Below are positions 2,589-8,219 of a DNA stretch of 16,100 nucleotides, piece after piece. A program made the translations under genes and the position numbers. This DNA comes from Patescibacteria group bacterium. GTDB lineage: Bacteria > Patescibacteria > Microgenomatia > Daviesbacterales > UBA10151. The notes beneath the pieces were generated by a model, which saw only the letters and a list, made by a program, of their open reading frames with translations, did not search any database and was not told the DNA's origin. The DNA lies in NCBI GenBank assembly GCA_023487645.1, contig JAMDBX010000010.1, positions 1-16,100 of the forward strand. The letters are read 5' to 3'. The stretch's first letter is position 1. The number at the start of each line of letters is the position of its first letter.

Positions 2589-3977
2589 ATGACAGAAAAA
2601 AAAGAACAATTTGAAAAAACCTCGACCGGCGTGGTAATTTTCCCTGAAGTATGGGAAACCCTTCCTGCTCGTTTTGCCAATGCACAACGGCGAGTGTTTG
2701 AGGGAATTCAAAAAGGATACCACAAGCAAATGGATGAAGGATTTTTTCCTTCTGATCTGGGTGTAGATGATATCAAAAGAGAGATTGAAAAAGATCCGAG
2801 CTTGGCTTCTAATAATACTATTATCAAAAGAAAAATTAAAGGGGGAGAGGAAAAGTTGGTTGCTATTTCTTATAGGCGAGCTACTTACCGAAGCATTTAT
2901 CAAGAAATTGTTGCAGGATTGGAGGAAATAGAAAAGTTTGGGTGGAAGGCCAATGACGAGTTAATGATTCATGAGGCTGGTATATTAAAGGAAGGTTTTG
3001 AAACTGGTAATACAGACAGAGCTATGTTGCGTTTTATACTTTTAAAGCAGCATCCAATTAATTCAACATGGGCAGGTCTTTTAGATTGGTATGTTAATCC
3101 CTGGAAACTAAGTTTTCAGGGTCTAGGGCAAAGACAGAACCCTCGTTTGTCGGCAGATTTTAGTGCTTGGTCAAGAGATATTTTAAGAGCTGAAAAACGT
3201 GTTGGATTGAAAGGTGAGCCGATATACGTAGATTTTATGCTCGGGGATTCAACTGCACAAGCAGGGTATGCTGCAGAAAAAATTTGGCAGGGTCAGACAT
3301 TTCCTTCTCAAAGTTATATTGCTGAAAATGTTGGTTACTTTATCGAGTTTAATGATAACGTTTCACAGTGGAAAAGCGATACCTTAGTAAGACCGCTTTT
3401 TGACTCTATTCTTCCGCCATATCTTAAACGCCGGGATGATTTAGACAAAGTCTTTACTCGGGCAAGAAGAGCGATTGTCAGTGCCCATGAAATTGGGCAT
3501 GCTGCACATGTGATCAGATTTGGAGCTCAAAAACGTTTGATTGATATGTATCAAAACTTAAGGGAAGCTTTTGCTGATACTTTTGCGCCTTATGCAGTTT
3601 TAAATTATCCGCGCCCTGATATAATTTCTCAAGATGAAGTTGAGCTGGCAATATATTTTGACATTGCCAGGAAACTGGTTAAATCAAGCGAATACCAGGG
3701 AAAAGTTTTAAAAGGAGACGTTTCAGAAAAACAGATTAGCGATCCTTATCCATTTTCATCAGCTGCTTGGTTAAACACGATGATAGAAGCAGGAGTTTTA
3801 AACAGAAGCAGTGATGACATTTATTACTTGGCTAATCTAAATGAAGTTGAGAAAGTAAACCGTGCTTATCAAAAGGATCTACAAGCACTCACAGATGAAG
3901 GTAGCCGTAATCAGGTGGAAGACTTTATTTTAAGACGAGCAAGTTATCCTGTGAATTTTTTAGCCAAAGTTGCTTAA
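2589..3977 (+). CDS. M49-like metallopeptidase with intact HEIGH / REAFAD site
   Basis: This 462-residue protein carries a zinc-peptidase site: H300-E301-I-G-H304, then R325-E326-A-F-A-D330. The two histidines and E326 would bind zinc and E301 would be the general base. The spacing to an E-x-x-x-D element recalls family M49 (dipeptidyl-peptidase III), whose classic form is HELLGH with EECRAD. This protein has the shorter HExxH form. The N-terminal region (YHKQMDEGFFP, residues 44-54) and a GYAAE...G..FPS block before the active site match the preceding gene, so the pair arose by duplication. No signal peptide or membrane segment is seen, which suggests a cytoplasmic peptidase, perhaps recycling peptides. 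The ATG is 63 bases after the previous stop, with no strong ribosome binding site. That it is a metallopeptidase is well supported; M49 membership and substrate are less sure. Confidence 0.65.
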   Translation: MTEKKEQFEKTSTGVVIFPEVWETLPARFANAQRRVFEGIQKGYHKQMDEGFFPSDLGVDDIKREIEKDPSLASNNTIIKRKIKGGEEKLVAISYRRATYRSIYQEIVAGLEEIEKFGWKANDELMIHEAGILKEGFETGNTDRAMLRFILLKQHPINSTWAGLLDWYVNPWKLSFQGLGQRQNPRLSADFSAWSRDILRAEKRVGLKGEPIYVDFMLGDSTAQAGYAAEKIWQGQTFPSQSYIAENVGYFIEFNDNVSQWKSDTLVRPLFDSILPPYLKRRDDLDKVFTRARRAIVSAHEIGHAAHVIRFGAQKRLIDMYQNLREAFADTFAPYAVLNYPRPDIISQDEVELAIYFDIARKLVKSSEYQGKVLKGDVSEKQISDPYPFSSAAWLNTMIEAGVLNRSSDDIYYLANLNEVEKVNRAYQKDLQALTDEGSRNQVEDFILRRASYPVNFLAKVA

Positions 3978-4016: not shown

Positions 4017-5462
4017 ATGGCTTTAGAGAATCTGCAAAAAGAACGGCTTAAAAAATTAAAAAATATCCAGCAGTTGGGAGTAAACCCTTACCCTGCCGTA
4101 GCTTCACGCAAGCAAACAACTGAGGAGGCCAGAAAAATGTTGGGTAAAAAGGTGGCTGTAGCCGGAAGATTAAGGTCACTCCGTCCCCATGGAAAGATTA
4201 CTTTTGCCGATTTGGAAGACGAGTCTGGCAAAATCCAGCTTTTCTTTTCCCAAGTAGATTTAAATGGTGATAAGTATGATTTTTTAAAAAATTTAGACAT
4301 CGGTGATTTTTTACAAGCAGAGGGTGAAGTTTTTAAAACCCAAGCCGGAGAAATAACAGTCAAAGTTTTTTCTTATCAGTTGCTGACAAAATCCATCCGC
4401 CCATTGCCTCCAACCTGGTATGGATTAAAAGATGTTGAAGAAAGATACAGGAAAAGATATTTGGATTTAATTTTAAATCCCGAAGTGAAAAATCAATTTA
4501 TTTTAAAAAGTAAATTTTGGACTTTAGCCCGAAAATATATGGCAGAACATGGGTTTTTGGAAGTAGAAACACCGGTCTTAGAACAAACTCCCGGGGGAGC
4601 AGATGCTAGGCCGTTTATTACTCACCATTTTGCTCAAAATATTCCTTTATATTTAAGGATTTCACCGGAACTTCATCTAAAAAGACTTTTGGTAGGGGGT
4701 TTTGAAAAAATTTTTGAATTGGGAAGAATTTTTAGAAATGAGGGGATTGATGATGAGCATTTACAAGATTATACCCAGTTAGAATTTTACTGGGCTTATG
4801 CAGATTATGAGCAATTGATGGATTTTGTCGAAGAGATGTATAAAACAATTATTAAAGGCACTTTTGGCACTTTAATAACTACTTGGGAAGGAGAGAAAAT
4901 TAATTGGGGTAAAAAATGGCCAAGAGTGGAATATTTTAAGTTGCTTTCTGAACATTGGAAAGTAGATGCCGAAAAATTGACAGTGGATGAACTTTATAAA
5001 TTAGCAGATAAATTTGGAGTAAAAGTAGAGCCAAATTTAGGCAAAGGAAGATTGCTTGATTTTATTTACAAAAAAACTGTGCGTCCAAAGTTAATCCAAC
5101 CCCAATTTTTGATTAATCCGCCTGCAGATGTTGAACCATTGGCTAAGCGTTTACAACAAAATCCCCAACTTGTGCAAAGAATGCAAGTTTTGGCTATGGG
5201 TTCTGAGCTGGGAAAAGGCTTTTCAGAACTAAATGATCCAGTGGACCAAAGGATACGTTTTGAGGAACAAATGAGACTGCGGAAAAAAGGTGATGCTGAG
5301 GCCCAAATGATGGATAAAGATTTTGTGGAAGCCTTAGAATATGGCATGCCCCCGGCAGCAGGATTTGGTTTTTCAGAAAGATTAATAGCGATGCTTTTGG
5401 ATAAACCAATCAGAGAGATGGTCTTTTTCCCAATCATGAAACCTGAAGGGAAGAAAAAATGA
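4017..5462 (+). CDS. lysS: Lysyl-tRNA synthetase, class II
   Basis: The enzyme charges tRNA-Lys with lysine in the cytoplasm. The 481 residues include an N-terminal OB-fold anticodon-binding domain (about 45-130, VAVAGRLRSLRPHGKITFADL) and the class II catalytic core. The core begins at RYRKRYLDL, and motif 2 (GRIFRNEGIDDEH) carries the ATP-binding arginine. The conserved LysRS stretch FSELNDPVDQ is present, and motif 3 is read from YGMPPAAGFGFSERL, where the class II arginine is kept. The usual GIDRL of motif 3 is GFSERL here, a mild divergence. The gene starts right behind a good -10 box and ends with TGA overlapping the next ATG by 4 bases, so it forms an operon with the HD-domain gene. 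Assignment is secure. Confidence 0.93.
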   Translation: MALENLQKERLKKLKNIQQLGVNPYPAVASRKQTTEEARKMLGKKVAVAGRLRSLRPHGKITFADLEDESGKIQLFFSQVDLNGDKYDFLKNLDIGDFLQAEGEVFKTQAGEITVKVFSYQLLTKSIRPLPPTWYGLKDVEERYRKRYLDLILNPEVKNQFILKSKFWTLARKYMAEHGFLEVETPVLEQTPGGADARPFITHHFAQNIPLYLRISPELHLKRLLVGGFEKIFELGRIFRNEGIDDEHLQDYTQLEFYWAYADYEQLMDFVEEMYKTIIKGTFGTLITTWEGEKINWGKKWPRVEYFKLLSEHWKVDAEKLTVDELYKLADKFGVKVEPNLGKGRLLDFIYKKTVRPKLIQPQFLINPPADVEPLAKRLQQNPQLVQRMQVLAMGSELGKGFSELNDPVDQRIRFEEQMRLRKKGDAEAQMMDKDFVEALEYGMPPAAGFGFSERLIAMLLDKPIREMVFFPIMKPEGKKK

Positions 5463-6073
5463 ATAGGGACGAGGTTTTAAAAATTGTTGAAGAAAAAGTT
5501 ACCAACAAAAATATTATCAAACACATGTTGGCAACGGAAGCTGTAATGAAGGCCTTGTGTGAAGAATTGTCTCATCGTCAAAAAAGAGATTCTTCGGCTG
5601 CGCCTCAGAATGACAGTGACGGAGAATTCAATGTGGAGGAATGGGGACTGGCTGGGCTTTTACATGATGGTGATTATCGGGAAGATGTTCCAGTTAATTT
5701 GCAGGGAATCCAAATTGGCAAGTGGGTGGAGGAAAAAGGCATCAACTTACCTGAAGAGATAAAACAGGCCATGGCAGCCCATAATGCCAGCAATACCGGT
5801 GTTAAACCGCAATCAAAAATGGATTGGTCGCTTTTTGCCTGTGATTCTTTGACCGGTTTGATTACGGCCTGCACTTTAGTTTTACCCAGCAAAAAGTTGG
5901 CTGATGTCAAAGTAGAGTCAGTACTGAAAAAATTTAAAACTCCTTCTTTTGCCGGAGGTACCAGAAGAGAGGATATTTTAATGTGTGAAGAAAAGTTAGG
6001 GCTTACTTTGGAGGAATTTGTTACAATAGCTTTGATGGCAATGCAGGGAGTTGCTCCAAGGTTAGGATTATAA
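5459..6073 (+). CDS. HD-domain protein (predicted metal-dependent phosphohydrolase) with in-frame palindrome insert
   Basis: HD-domain proteins bind metal through a His...HD...Asp set and usually hydrolyse phosphoesters of nucleotides or signalling molecules; the substrate here is unknown. Visible motifs are H22 in KHMLATEAVM, H69-D70 in GLAGLLHDGDY, H108 in MAAHN and D129 in FACDSLTG. Residues 40-57 (RQKRDSSAAPQNDSDGEF), between the first helix and the HD motif, come from a REP-like palindromic DNA element read as protein and lengthen that loop. The ATG overlaps the lysS stop (ATGA), implying translational coupling. The segment encoding part of residues 123-163 also occurs as a perfect 119-bp inverted copy inside the 5' end of serS. 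The HD family is well supported and the protein is otherwise complete. Confidence 0.82.
   Translation: MNRDEVLKIVEEKVTNKNIIKHMLATEAVMKALCEELSHRQKRDSSAAPQNDSDGEFNVEEWGLAGLLHDGDYREDVPVNLQGIQIGKWVEEKGINLPEEIKQAMAAHNASNTGVKPQSKMDWSLFACDSLTGLITACTLVLPSKKLADVKVESVLKKFKTPSFAGGTRREDILMCEEKLGLTLEEFVTIALMAMQGVAPRLGL
5576..5621 (+). repeat. REP-like palindromic element inside the HD gene
   Basis: A 46-base element has terminal CGTCA (5576-5580) and TGACG (5617-5621). Its core hairpin pairs ATTCTTCGGC (5589-5598) with GCCTCAGAAT (5602-5611), with two mismatches and a TGC loop. The core resembles the dispersed GATTCTTCG...CAGAATGAC repeats that I recall from many environmental bacterial genomes. Here it lies in coding sequence and stays in frame. 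Confidence 0.65.
5827..5945 (+). repeat. Inverted repeat, arm 1 (in HD gene)
   Basis: These 119 bases of the HD gene are the exact reverse complement of 6113-6231, by eye without a mismatch. The match stops sharply at both ends: 5826 and 5946 do not pair with 6232 and 6112. This arm is the original, because it encodes conserved HD-protein sequence in frame. Confidence 0.9.
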
Positions 6074-6075
6074 AT

Positions 6076-6240
6076 ATGGTTGATATAAATTTTATTAGAC
6101 AAAATCCGGAAAAAGGAGTTTTAAATTTTTTCAGTACTGACTCTACTTTGACATCAGCCAACTTTTTGCTGGGTAAAACTAAAGTGCAGGCCGTAATCAA
6201 ACCGGTCAAAGAATCACAGGCAAAAAGCGACAAGTTTTAG
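6076..6240 (+). pseudogene. serS: 5' fragment of serS, interrupted by the inverted copy
   Basis: The first 13 codons (MVDINFIRQNPEK) are the expected N-terminus of seryl-tRNA synthetase. From there on the frame reads the inverted HD-gene copy and ends at TAG 6238-6240. Downstream, in another frame, SerRS sequence resumes at about 6231 (QVLVDRNVDINLDDFLKLN), so the two parts belong to one original gene. About ten codons of normal sequence appear to be missing between them. The ATG follows the HD stop by two bases, fitting operon expression. Either the gene is broken here or the assembly is wrong at this point. Confidence 0.75.
6113..6231 (-). repeat. Inverted repeat, arm 2 (copy inside serS)
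   Basis: This is the 119-base reverse-complement copy of 5827-5945, separated from it by a 167-base spacer (5946-6112). The spacer holds the HD gene's 3' end and the first codons of serS. The copy replaces a short part of the SerRS N-terminal coding region. Confidence 0.9.
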
Positions 6241-6302
6241 TAGACAGGAATGTTGATATTAATCTGGACGATTTTTTAAAGCTTAATGAAGAGAAAAAAG
6301 AG

Positions 6303-7475
6303 TTGACGACAAAAGTTGATAATTTAAGACAGCAACGAAATGCGGCTGCAAAAGAGAAAGATATAGAAAGAGGTAAAGAAATTAAAGAAAAGTTAGGTTC
6401 TTTGGAAGAGGAACTAAGACAGAAAGAAGAAGAATATAATAATTTATTATTAAAATTTCCAAATGTTCCTCTAGATGATGTTCCTGTTGGGCCTGATGAG
6501 ACCGGTAATAAGGTATTAAGAAAATGGGGAGAGCCAAGACAATTTGATTTTCCTGTAAAAGATCATGTCGAAATAGGTGAGAAGCTAGACATCATAGATA
6601 TTGAAGATGCTGGAAAAGTGGTGGGGAGCAGGTTTGCCTATCTTAAGGCAGAGGCTGCAATGTTGCAGTTTGCGTTAATCAACTTTACTTTTCAAACATT
6701 GCAGGACCAAAAGATACTCTCTGAGATCGCCCAAAAAGTTTCACCAAATATAAATCCTAAGCCTTTTATCCCTGTTATTCCCCCTGTAATGATTAAACCT
6801 GAAGTTTATACAAGGATGGGTAGACTCGATCCTTCTGTCGTCGATGAAAGGTATTATTTACCTAAGGATGATCTATATTTAATCGGTAGTGCGGAACATA
6901 CACTCGGTCCGCTGCATATGGATCAAGTTTTAGAAGAGGGGAATTTGCCAATCCGTTATGTAGGTTATTCTACAAGTTTTAGAAGAGAAGCTGGTGCGTA
7001 TGGTAAGGATGTTCGTGGAATTTTGCGTGTACATCAGTTTGATAAGATTGAAATGGAAACTTTTTCCCGACCGGAGGATTCGCAAATAGAACAAGATTTT
7101 ATTGTTGCTATCCAAGAATATTTAGTTAAATCCTTGGGTATCCCTTATCAGGTAGTAATTATTTGTACTGGAGATATGACTACTCCAGATGCAAGACAGA
7201 TCGATATTGAATGTTGGATCCCTTCACAAAATCGGTATCGTGAAACGCACACCTCTGATTTAATGACTGATTATCAAGCGAGGAGACTAAATACTAGAGT
7301 TAGACGCAAGGATGGAAAAATTGAGTTTGTACATATGAATGATGCTACAGCTTTTGCTATCGGTAGAATTCTTATTGCTATTTTAGAAAATTTCCAGCAA
7401 AAAGATGGATCAGTTAAGATTCCGGAAGTTTTGCAAAAATATACCGGTTTTGCCGAGATTAAGCCTAAAAAATAA
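6303..7475 (+). CDS. serS: Seryl-tRNA synthetase, main body (N-terminus displaced)
   Basis: SerRS charges tRNA-Ser. The body is intact. A tRNA-binding helical arm (LRQQRNAAAKEKDIERGKEI and onward) leads to FPNVPLDDVPVG, the class II core, motif 2 (FRREAGAYGKDVRGILRVHQFDKIE), the QARRLNTR segment and motif 3 (NDATAFAIGRILIAILENFQ). The open frame yields 390 residues from the TTG at 6303, about 45 fewer than a full protein. The missing N-terminal residues are encoded in the same frame from 6231 (VDRNVDINLDDFLKLNEEKKE) and, before the inserted inverted copy, at 6076-6114 in a different frame. TTG 6303 is the only usual start codon in frame after the insertion, so a shortened protein lacking the first strand and half of a coiled-coil helix is possible. 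Identity is secure; the start is not. Confidence 0.88.
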   Translation: MTTKVDNLRQQRNAAAKEKDIERGKEIKEKLGSLEEELRQKEEEYNNLLLKFPNVPLDDVPVGPDETGNKVLRKWGEPRQFDFPVKDHVEIGEKLDIIDIEDAGKVVGSRFAYLKAEAAMLQFALINFTFQTLQDQKILSEIAQKVSPNINPKPFIPVIPPVMIKPEVYTRMGRLDPSVVDERYYLPKDDLYLIGSAEHTLGPLHMDQVLEEGNLPIRYVGYSTSFRREAGAYGKDVRGILRVHQFDKIEMETFSRPEDSQIEQDFIVAIQEYLVKSLGIPYQVVIICTGDMTTPDARQIDIECWIPSQNRYRETHTSDLMTDYQARRLNTRVRRKDGKIEFVHMNDATAFAIGRILIAILENFQQKDGSVKIPEVLQKYTGFAEIKPKK

Positions 7476-7547: not shown

Positions 7548-8219
7548 ATGCTTCCTCTAAAAGATACCGGTCCTCGGGTGGTAAAGTTTCCTCTTTGGGT
7601 TTTAACGATCATCATTATTAATATTGTTGTTTTTTATTTTGAACTTACATCTGCAAACCCCGATACTTTCATTACCCAACACGCTTTAGTGCCGTCAACG
7701 ATTAGTATTTTTCATCCGATGACATTATTTACTTTTATTACCAGCCAATTTTTGCACGGAGGTTTTTTACATATTGCCTCTAATATGTGGTTTTTGTGGA
7801 TTTTTGGAGATAATGTTGAAGATAAATTGGGTTATTTTTTCTTCCCAATTTTTTACCTCGCTTCAGGTATTGTCGGCAACGTTGTCCAATATTTTTTTAT
7901 GCCTTCATCGCCAATCCCGGTGATTGGGGCATCCGGGGCTATTGCCGGAGTTTTAGGTGCCTATTATGCTTTTTTCCCGCGCAATAAAGTCAAAACTCTA
8001 ATTTTTATTCTGATATTTGTCACAATTTTCGACCTTCCTTCTTCTTTTATACTTTTTTATTGGTTTATCTTGCAACTTTTTAGCAGTGCCATAGCAGTTT
8101 CTCCGGCTGCAGCCAGTTTCGGAGGGGATATTGCTTATTTTGCTCACATTGGAGGGTTTGTTTTAGGATGGCTGGTAGCAAGAATTTTTTACCAACGGAT
8201 GGAACTCTCTCAAAGTTAG
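7548..8219 (+). CDS. Rhomboid-family intramembrane serine protease
   Basis: Rhomboids cleave transmembrane segments inside the lipid bilayer. The 223 residues show about six hydrophobic segments. The family signature HGGFLHIASNMWFLWIFG contains H70, H75 and N79, the last in the oxyanion position. The catalytic serine S129 sits in GASGAIAGVLGAY, and the catalytic histidine H200 in AHIGGFVLGWL. All key residues are present, so it should be active. The hydrophilic N-terminus is short (MLPLKDTGPRVVKFP, about 15 residues), which fits the common bacterial form. It stands alone between serS and galE. The substrate cannot be inferred. Confidence 0.92.
   Translation: MLPLKDTGPRVVKFPLWVLTIIIINIVVFYFELTSANPDTFITQHALVPSTISIFHPMTLFTFITSQFLHGGFLHIASNMWFLWIFGDNVEDKLGYFFFPIFYLASGIVGNVVQYFFMPSSPIPVIGASGAIAGVLGAYYAFFPRNKVKTLIFILIFVTIFDLPSSFILFYWFILQLFSSAIAVSPAAASFGGDIAYFAHIGGFVLGWLVARIFYQRMELSQS

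Follow-up and report, generated by a model that had tools for sequence, protein, structure and literature searches.

Insertions that carry a reversed copy of nearby DNA have been described in several settings. In short-range template switching, as set out in the four-point model of PMC7954356, two switches insert a reverse-complement copy of nearby sequence and the return falls close to the point of departure; in the gold-standard set of great-ape events reported there, the copied length has a median of 12 nucleotides (nt) and a maximum of 128 nt, and the majority patterns yield single inverted repeats. At quasipalindromes in Escherichia coli, the polymerase takes the nascent strand as template and then returns to the correct template (as described in PMC7202029). 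Yeast fold-back insertions, in the account of PMC11724301, are local inverted insertions of 2 to ~150 base pairs (bp), one junction of which carries 0-5 bp of microhomology (median 2). Inverted chimeras over short distances are also made in vitro, by multiple displacement amplification (MDA; PMC1855051). Here, we analyse a 119-bp inverted duplication that breaks the start of serS, the gene for the seryl-tRNA synthetase SerRS, in a Patescibacteria group bacterium. It lies in a 16,100-nt stretch of contig JAMDBX010000010.1 (assembly GCA_023487645.1), hereafter the window, and its source is an HD-type gene directly upstream. We consider it probable that a single fold-back copying event with two template switches made this insert.

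The inverted copy, at 6113-6231, matches the reverse complement of 5827-5945 at 119/119 bases across a 167-nt spacer, and there is no N in the window. The edges of the arms are sharp, as a first, sequence-only reading of this DNA had described, and identity outside them is that of the background. A repeat-finding program lengthened the arms to 122 nt at 99% identity, with a spacer of 161 nt, because two further bases pair past one mismatch. The pair is neither a chance product nor usual among the related loci scanned, since the longest pairs in both comparisons were far shorter. In first-order Markov replicas of the window (n = 10; pairs with starts at most 600 nt apart), the longest exact inverted pair ran to 11-13 nt. 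Among 153 loci including the window (2,140,968 bases; loci rather than whole genomes, some of which may partly overlap), a scan with a 30-nt exact seed that left out tracts of at most two letters found one exact inverted pair longer than 40 nt, that of the window; the next longest listed measured 40, 35, 32, 32, 31 and 31 nt. With replicas reaching 11-13 nt and the other 152 loci at most 40 nt, a chance origin of the 119-nt pair is ruled out. A second scan, of 81 sequences (1,300,757 bases, 25-nt seed, no letter filter), turned up many short palindromes besides, and one simple-repeat array with arms of at most 37 nt in locus L070. Within the window, no inverted 16-mer was found outside the site.

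The donor arm lies in a gene whose product had no Pfam match at E 0.001. Its relatives are up to 71% identical among the matches listed; some carry Pfam PF01966, and the source records label some as phosphohydrolase or HD superfamily. In 15/15 relatives (a selection from 119 others listed) no gap interrupts the alignment of the duplicated stretch, and judged by this alignment the duplicated segment is native to the HD coding sequence. The same protein has ~17-20 extra residues around SHRQKRDSSAAPQNDSDGEFN (window 5570-5632), which are absent from 12 of the 15 relatives in the alignment.

From the ATG at 6076, the frame runs through 13 serS codons into the copy and ends with the TAG at 6238-6240; the rest of SerRS is in another frame, which is open from 6183. 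The insertion after codon 13 and the shift into this stop had both been recognized in the sequence-only reading, which had in addition taken roughly ten serS codons to be replaced; the proteins of relatives rule out a loss of that size. In P0002-P0006, the five closest relatives (identity 83-88%), 39 residues precede the residue encoded at 6303, and the window's MVDINFIRQNPEK, insert and QVLVDRNVDINL align to MVDINFIRQNTQKIKQVLADRNVDINL of P0002 minus two residues. Because the relatives have 117 nt where the window has 227 nt (117 + 110) between ATG 6076 and 6303, the net insertion would amount to about 110 nt and the loss from serS to about 6 nt (about two codons). The insert thus reads as a nearly clean inserted copy that shifts the serS frame.

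Larger samples give similar distances. The equivalent of residue 6303 is preceded by 39 codons (117 nt) in 57 of 106 rows and by 40 in 24, a count in which 14 rows are start-picking artefacts (N-terminal lengths 7-20); our claim about the N-terminus rests on the pattern test given below. From the last HD codon to the residue at 6303 the window has 233 nt. Of the 19 relatives that have HD upstream, 13 show 121-157 nt over the same distance; in the remaining six it is 196-523 nt, the gap between HD and serS being itself longer. The protein encoded by the shifted frame keeps the class II catalytic core (profile positions 8-179 of 179 in PF00587). By contrast with this core, the N-terminal domain PF02403 is represented by positions 66-108 of 108 only, scoring 25.4 bits where the cut-off is 28.2, and the window's serS does not hold a complete N-terminal tRNA-binding domain in one frame.

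Table 1. Coordinates of the inverted duplication, the genes it involves and their neighbours in the window.
Feature	Position	Strand	Details
Donor arm, inside HD gene	5827..5945	+	Exact 119/119 reverse complement of 6113-6231
Spacer: HD 3' end and serS start, 167 nt	5946..6112	none	Arm comparison
Inverted copy of 5827-5945	6113..6231	-	Arm comparison
Junction 1, serS to inverted HD copy	6112..6115		2 (possibly 3) nt probably shared; from register of flanks and ancestral bases suggested by relatives' proteins
Junction 2, return to serS, probably ~6 nt downstream of departure point	6230..6232		~1 nt probably shared; from protein alignment
serS, first 13 codons (MVDINFIRQNPEK)	6076..6114	+	Resembles N-termini of P0002-P0005
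Fusion open reading frame (ORF), 54 residues, ends at TAG 6238-6240	6076..6240	+	Reading from ATG 6076
serS body, shifted frame	6231..7475	+	TTG 6303 gives 390 residues; next TTG 6402
HD-superfamily hydrolase-like gene, 204 residues, native home of duplicated segment	5459..6073	+	
lysS, upstream neighbour	4017..5462	+	PF00152, PF01336
Rhomboid-family gene, downstream neighbour	7548..8219	+	PF01694

In the features tested, the insert resembles short-range template switches and would belong to this known kind of event: it is a reverse-complement copy of nearby sequence, it needs two switches, it leaves a single inverted repeat, and it returns near its departure, two serS residues being missing relative to P0002-P0006. 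It differs from the great-ape events in that its length is far over their median, although near their maximum (PMC7954356), in that it destroys an essential reading frame, and in that its ancestor is reconstructed from proteins rather than observed. A polymerase that copies its nascent strand and then returns, as described for E. coli (PMC7202029), is also what we propose for the window. However, an earlier imperfect inverted repeat is not evident here and the bases probably shared number just 1-3 nt; given the background identity outside the arms and a loss of only ~6 nt of the target, there is no room for such an earlier repeat, and a strict quasipalindrome-associated mutation is ruled out. 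With the yeast fold-back insertions, as characterized in PMC11724301, the window shares an inverted insertion of local sequence, a length below ~150 bp and, probably, short microhomology where the copy was captured, whereas the yeast events use a 10-bp imperfect inverted microhomology, which was not seen in the window, and non-homologous end-joining proteins. MDA chimeras are likewise inverted and short-ranged and join at microhomology of at least 2 nt, as the window may also do, but they join two segments, whereas the window has two junctions and a return to serS (PMC1855051). The two segments meeting at one junction with a deletion, typical of those chimeras, are not what the window shows, yet this feature is weakly defined: the reads in that paper averaged ~100 bases (from its totals) and could hardly have displayed a two-junction insert of 119 nt.

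We propose the following origin. A polymerase crossing the start of serS would quit its template after codon 13. Some 170 nt back, in the HD gene, it would pair over 2-3 nt with the opposite strand or with the strand it had itself just made, copy 119 nt backwards and then return to serS ~6 nt past the departure point, leaving a near-clean inverted insertion of ~110 nt net and a SerRS stopped at the TAG after 54 codons. Both flanks of the insert are the same serS, which resumes two residues apart by comparison with P0002, and the AA at 6113-6114 would be shared at junction 1 if codon 13 was formerly AAA, as the relatives' proteins suggest. Since the junctions probably share 1-3 bases and the return lies within ~6 nt, we infer either two switches by one polymerase or a templated insertion by fold-back at a break; the order and direction of the switches given here are the probable ones, and one event would account for both junctions. 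The product is most simply the trace of a one-off slip with no role of its own, rather than a working element.

The points against this origin concern viability, support for the junctions, close relatives and size. Loss of serS should be lethal, and this is hard to reconcile with living cells as the source of a consensus contig. Both junctions are known from the assembled contig alone. The search for close intact relatives turned up none at the DNA level; the closest proteins are 87-88% identical, the closest DNA compared is 79% identical in protein, and the ancestral bases at the junctions come from protein comparisons. The argument from gene order has weak points of its own: an HD gene precedes serS in only 14 of 102 plus-strand rows and 19 of 106 relatives, any HD match occurs in only 20 of the 45 genomes of the family, and a rhomboid match in 17. 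As to size, most yeast fold-back insertions reported in PMC11724301 are shorter than 14 bp, which puts 119 nt at the long end, and the largest template-switch-like pattern that PMC8794818 describes in rRNA genes, of 59 bp, failed quality control. Against the published ranges, 119 nt nevertheless stands at the upper end of known events, not outside them. PMC13155455 counts only spacers of at most 8 nt, and hence yields no usable base rate for a spacer of 167 nt. A search with the SbcC hairpin-nuclease model TIGR00618 matched 35 of the 45 family genomes at E <=0.001 and none above its curated cut-off, which just 1 of 14 control genomes passed.

The event so proposed could have taken place in a cell or in a tube. 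The sequence-only reading had offered a fold-back switch, an intermediate in a mixed population and an assembly or amplification chimera side by side; the class of event it named fits the anatomy, but a pure assembly error has become the less likely part of that list. In our view an amplification or library origin, or else a rare or doomed variant, is likelier than a cell that lives with the insertion, and the broken serS is probably not a fixed, working allele of a living population.

The strongest of the rival explanations, and one we hold to be a serious possibility just short of probable, is an in-vitro chimera, in which a fold-back copy made during whole-genome amplification, library PCR (polymerase chain reaction) or long-read library making entered a low-coverage consensus. 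The identical arms and the loss of an essential gene fit this origin. MDA joins are mostly inverted and carry microhomology (PMC1855051), and ligation nanopore libraries contain 0.18-7.33% inverted-repeat reads (as counted in PMC13141652), although the pieces of the reads counted there exceed 500 bp. The return to serS within ~6 nt also differs from the two-segment MDA chimeras described, a point that counts for little given the read length noted above. Either product of the broken gene is found on one known contig only. In a search for the 54-residue ORF in one protein collection, at word-based sensitivity, the sole match was the window's own contig, and among 8000 candidates scored for the broken serS body there was no second contig (P0001 has 1 member on 1 contig). 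In these searches the junctions thus gained no backing from another assembly.

Alternatively, and more tentatively, the insertion may be a real chromosomal mutation in a minority or recent lineage, not viable for long but caught by the assembler. A return within ~6 nt is what is expected of a switch in one replication fork or of a templated insertion at a break (in the descriptions of PMC7954356 and PMC11724301), and the locus is otherwise normal, its four-gene order recurring in the family as detailed below. However, a consensus contig normally represents the majority allele, and no intact sister protein was found at 90% identity or more, P0001 again being alone.

That the mutation is fixed and tolerated, with SerRS made from an internal start (TTG 6303, ATC 6213, ATT 6258 or CTG 6264) or by -1 slippage at 6222-6226, is unlikely. 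The sequence-only reading had suggested tolerance through an internal start, and such starts do exist in frame: the first ATG, GTG or TTG in the serS body is TTG 6303, followed by TTG 6402, and ATC 6213, ATT 6258 and CTG 6264 are non-standard candidates. The body is otherwise open, the class II core is kept, and a protein collection lists a 420-residue product of the window contig that would, by its length, start at 6213. These observations argue weakly for the idea. By eye, no strong Shine-Dalgarno sequence precedes any of the start candidates; a weak AGGA at 6246-6249, 8 nt ahead of ATT 6258, gives the sole candidate with the usual spacing. A start at TTG 6303 would remove 39 residues from the N-terminal domain, and in bacterial SerRS the helical arm of this domain recognizes the long arm of tRNA-Ser (as described in PMC9427863). 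The CAAAAAG run at 6221-6227, brought in by the copy, is such that a -1 slip would rejoin the serS frame before the TAG; it is probably there by chance, and as a slippery run it is only five A long.

The conservation of the N-terminus also speaks against tolerance. Comparison with relatives for an intact serS 5' end, a check that the sequence-only reading had put forward, returned a normal SerRS N-terminus in 111 of 111 relative loci and not in the window; the pattern used was loose, and the count covers the loci tested, which take in serS of family genomes only where a locus was available. The serS matches of three family genomes (G020, G033 and G017) start late. In a protein alignment that left aside shorter proteins in the list of relatives (for example, P0088, 394 residues), 18 of 19 relatives have the full N-terminus, and P0015 as predicted is without the first 16 residues. 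SerRS structures retrieved in a search of solved structures align from residue 1 of P0002. A second serS is not expected in the window's genome, because 39 of the 41 family genomes with a serS match (of 45) have a single one; in the remainder, G017 has a gene in two pieces and the second hit of G007 is weak (22 bits). We regard it as distinctly improbable that a Daviesbacteria-like host lives with this real, fixed mutation, its SerRS lacking the first 24-39 residues or frameshifted and its chromosome tolerating inverted arms of 119 bp around a loop of 167 nt.

An error purely of the assembly graph or of gap filling, to which no DNA molecule corresponds, has a similarly slight chance of being the explanation. 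Perfect identity would be expected if one unitig had been re-used in reverse. Against this, the 1-3 bases probably shared at the joins are far fewer than a usual k-mer, and a de Bruijn path needs real junction k-mers, so that a molecule really carrying the junctions is likelier than such an error; moreover, the window has no N and no further inverted 16-mer. A join of two different genomes is also unlikely, because the order lysS-HD-serS-rhomboid recurs in the family, and this order and both halves of serS fit one locus.

The weakest candidate, an invertible or regulatory element in which the arms recombine and the spacer flips to switch the ends of HD and serS, was suggested by the long identical inverted arms and short spacer and is geometrically possible, as the sequence-only reading had proposed, but it is hardly credible: in-silico inversion of 5946-6112 puts foreign residues at the C-terminus of the HD protein and does not restore serS, which then has no start; this rules out a functional switch, and none of the 152 other loci scanned has such arms. 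A Pfam scan of 8 of the 24 ORFs listed matched no recombinase.

The fold-back insertion that we favour sits in a locus of familiar composition. The genes lysS, HD, serS and rhomboid are consecutive on one strand, as in the window, in 3 of the 45 family genomes (G002, G022 and G041). Judged by SerRS, Candidatus Daviesbacteria GW2011_GWA2_42_7 is the closest named genome (79%; locus L001, genome G001); in it the serS-rhomboid pair is kept and, on our own reading of its DNA, an HD-like 3' end lies ahead of serS. The contig of L001 opens partway through this HD gene (1-120), so that its edge truncates the gene immediately ahead of serS. For the window region 4017-7475, the nearest matches among the 45 family genomes are G011 and G027 for LysS (70-71%) and G041 for HD (73%), and SerRS is 79% identical to that of G001 and 42% identical to that of G041. 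This suggests that synthetase genes may have been patchily replaced within a conserved gene order, in a comparison of neighbours that is incomplete, G001 being without an HD match (contig edge) and without a full LysS match. Elsewhere in the window, 1170-2525 (451 residues) and 2589-3977 (462 residues) encode adjoining large proteins with no Pfam match at E 0.001; the latter contains HEIGH, which we take to be a zinc-peptidase-like motif. Among viral contigs, 24 pattern matches included no relatives.

If the insertion is a chimera, it provides a signature by which errors in metagenome contigs could be spotted, namely a long exact inverted copy with two junctions and a broken essential gene in normal gene order. 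In either case, read support is needed before the apparent serS loss is interpreted as biology. If it is real, it would be a clean, one-step template-switch insertion near the long end of the size range, in an apparently uncultured bacterium, and it would amount to a natural test of how much SerRS N-terminus a cell with a reduced genome can do without.
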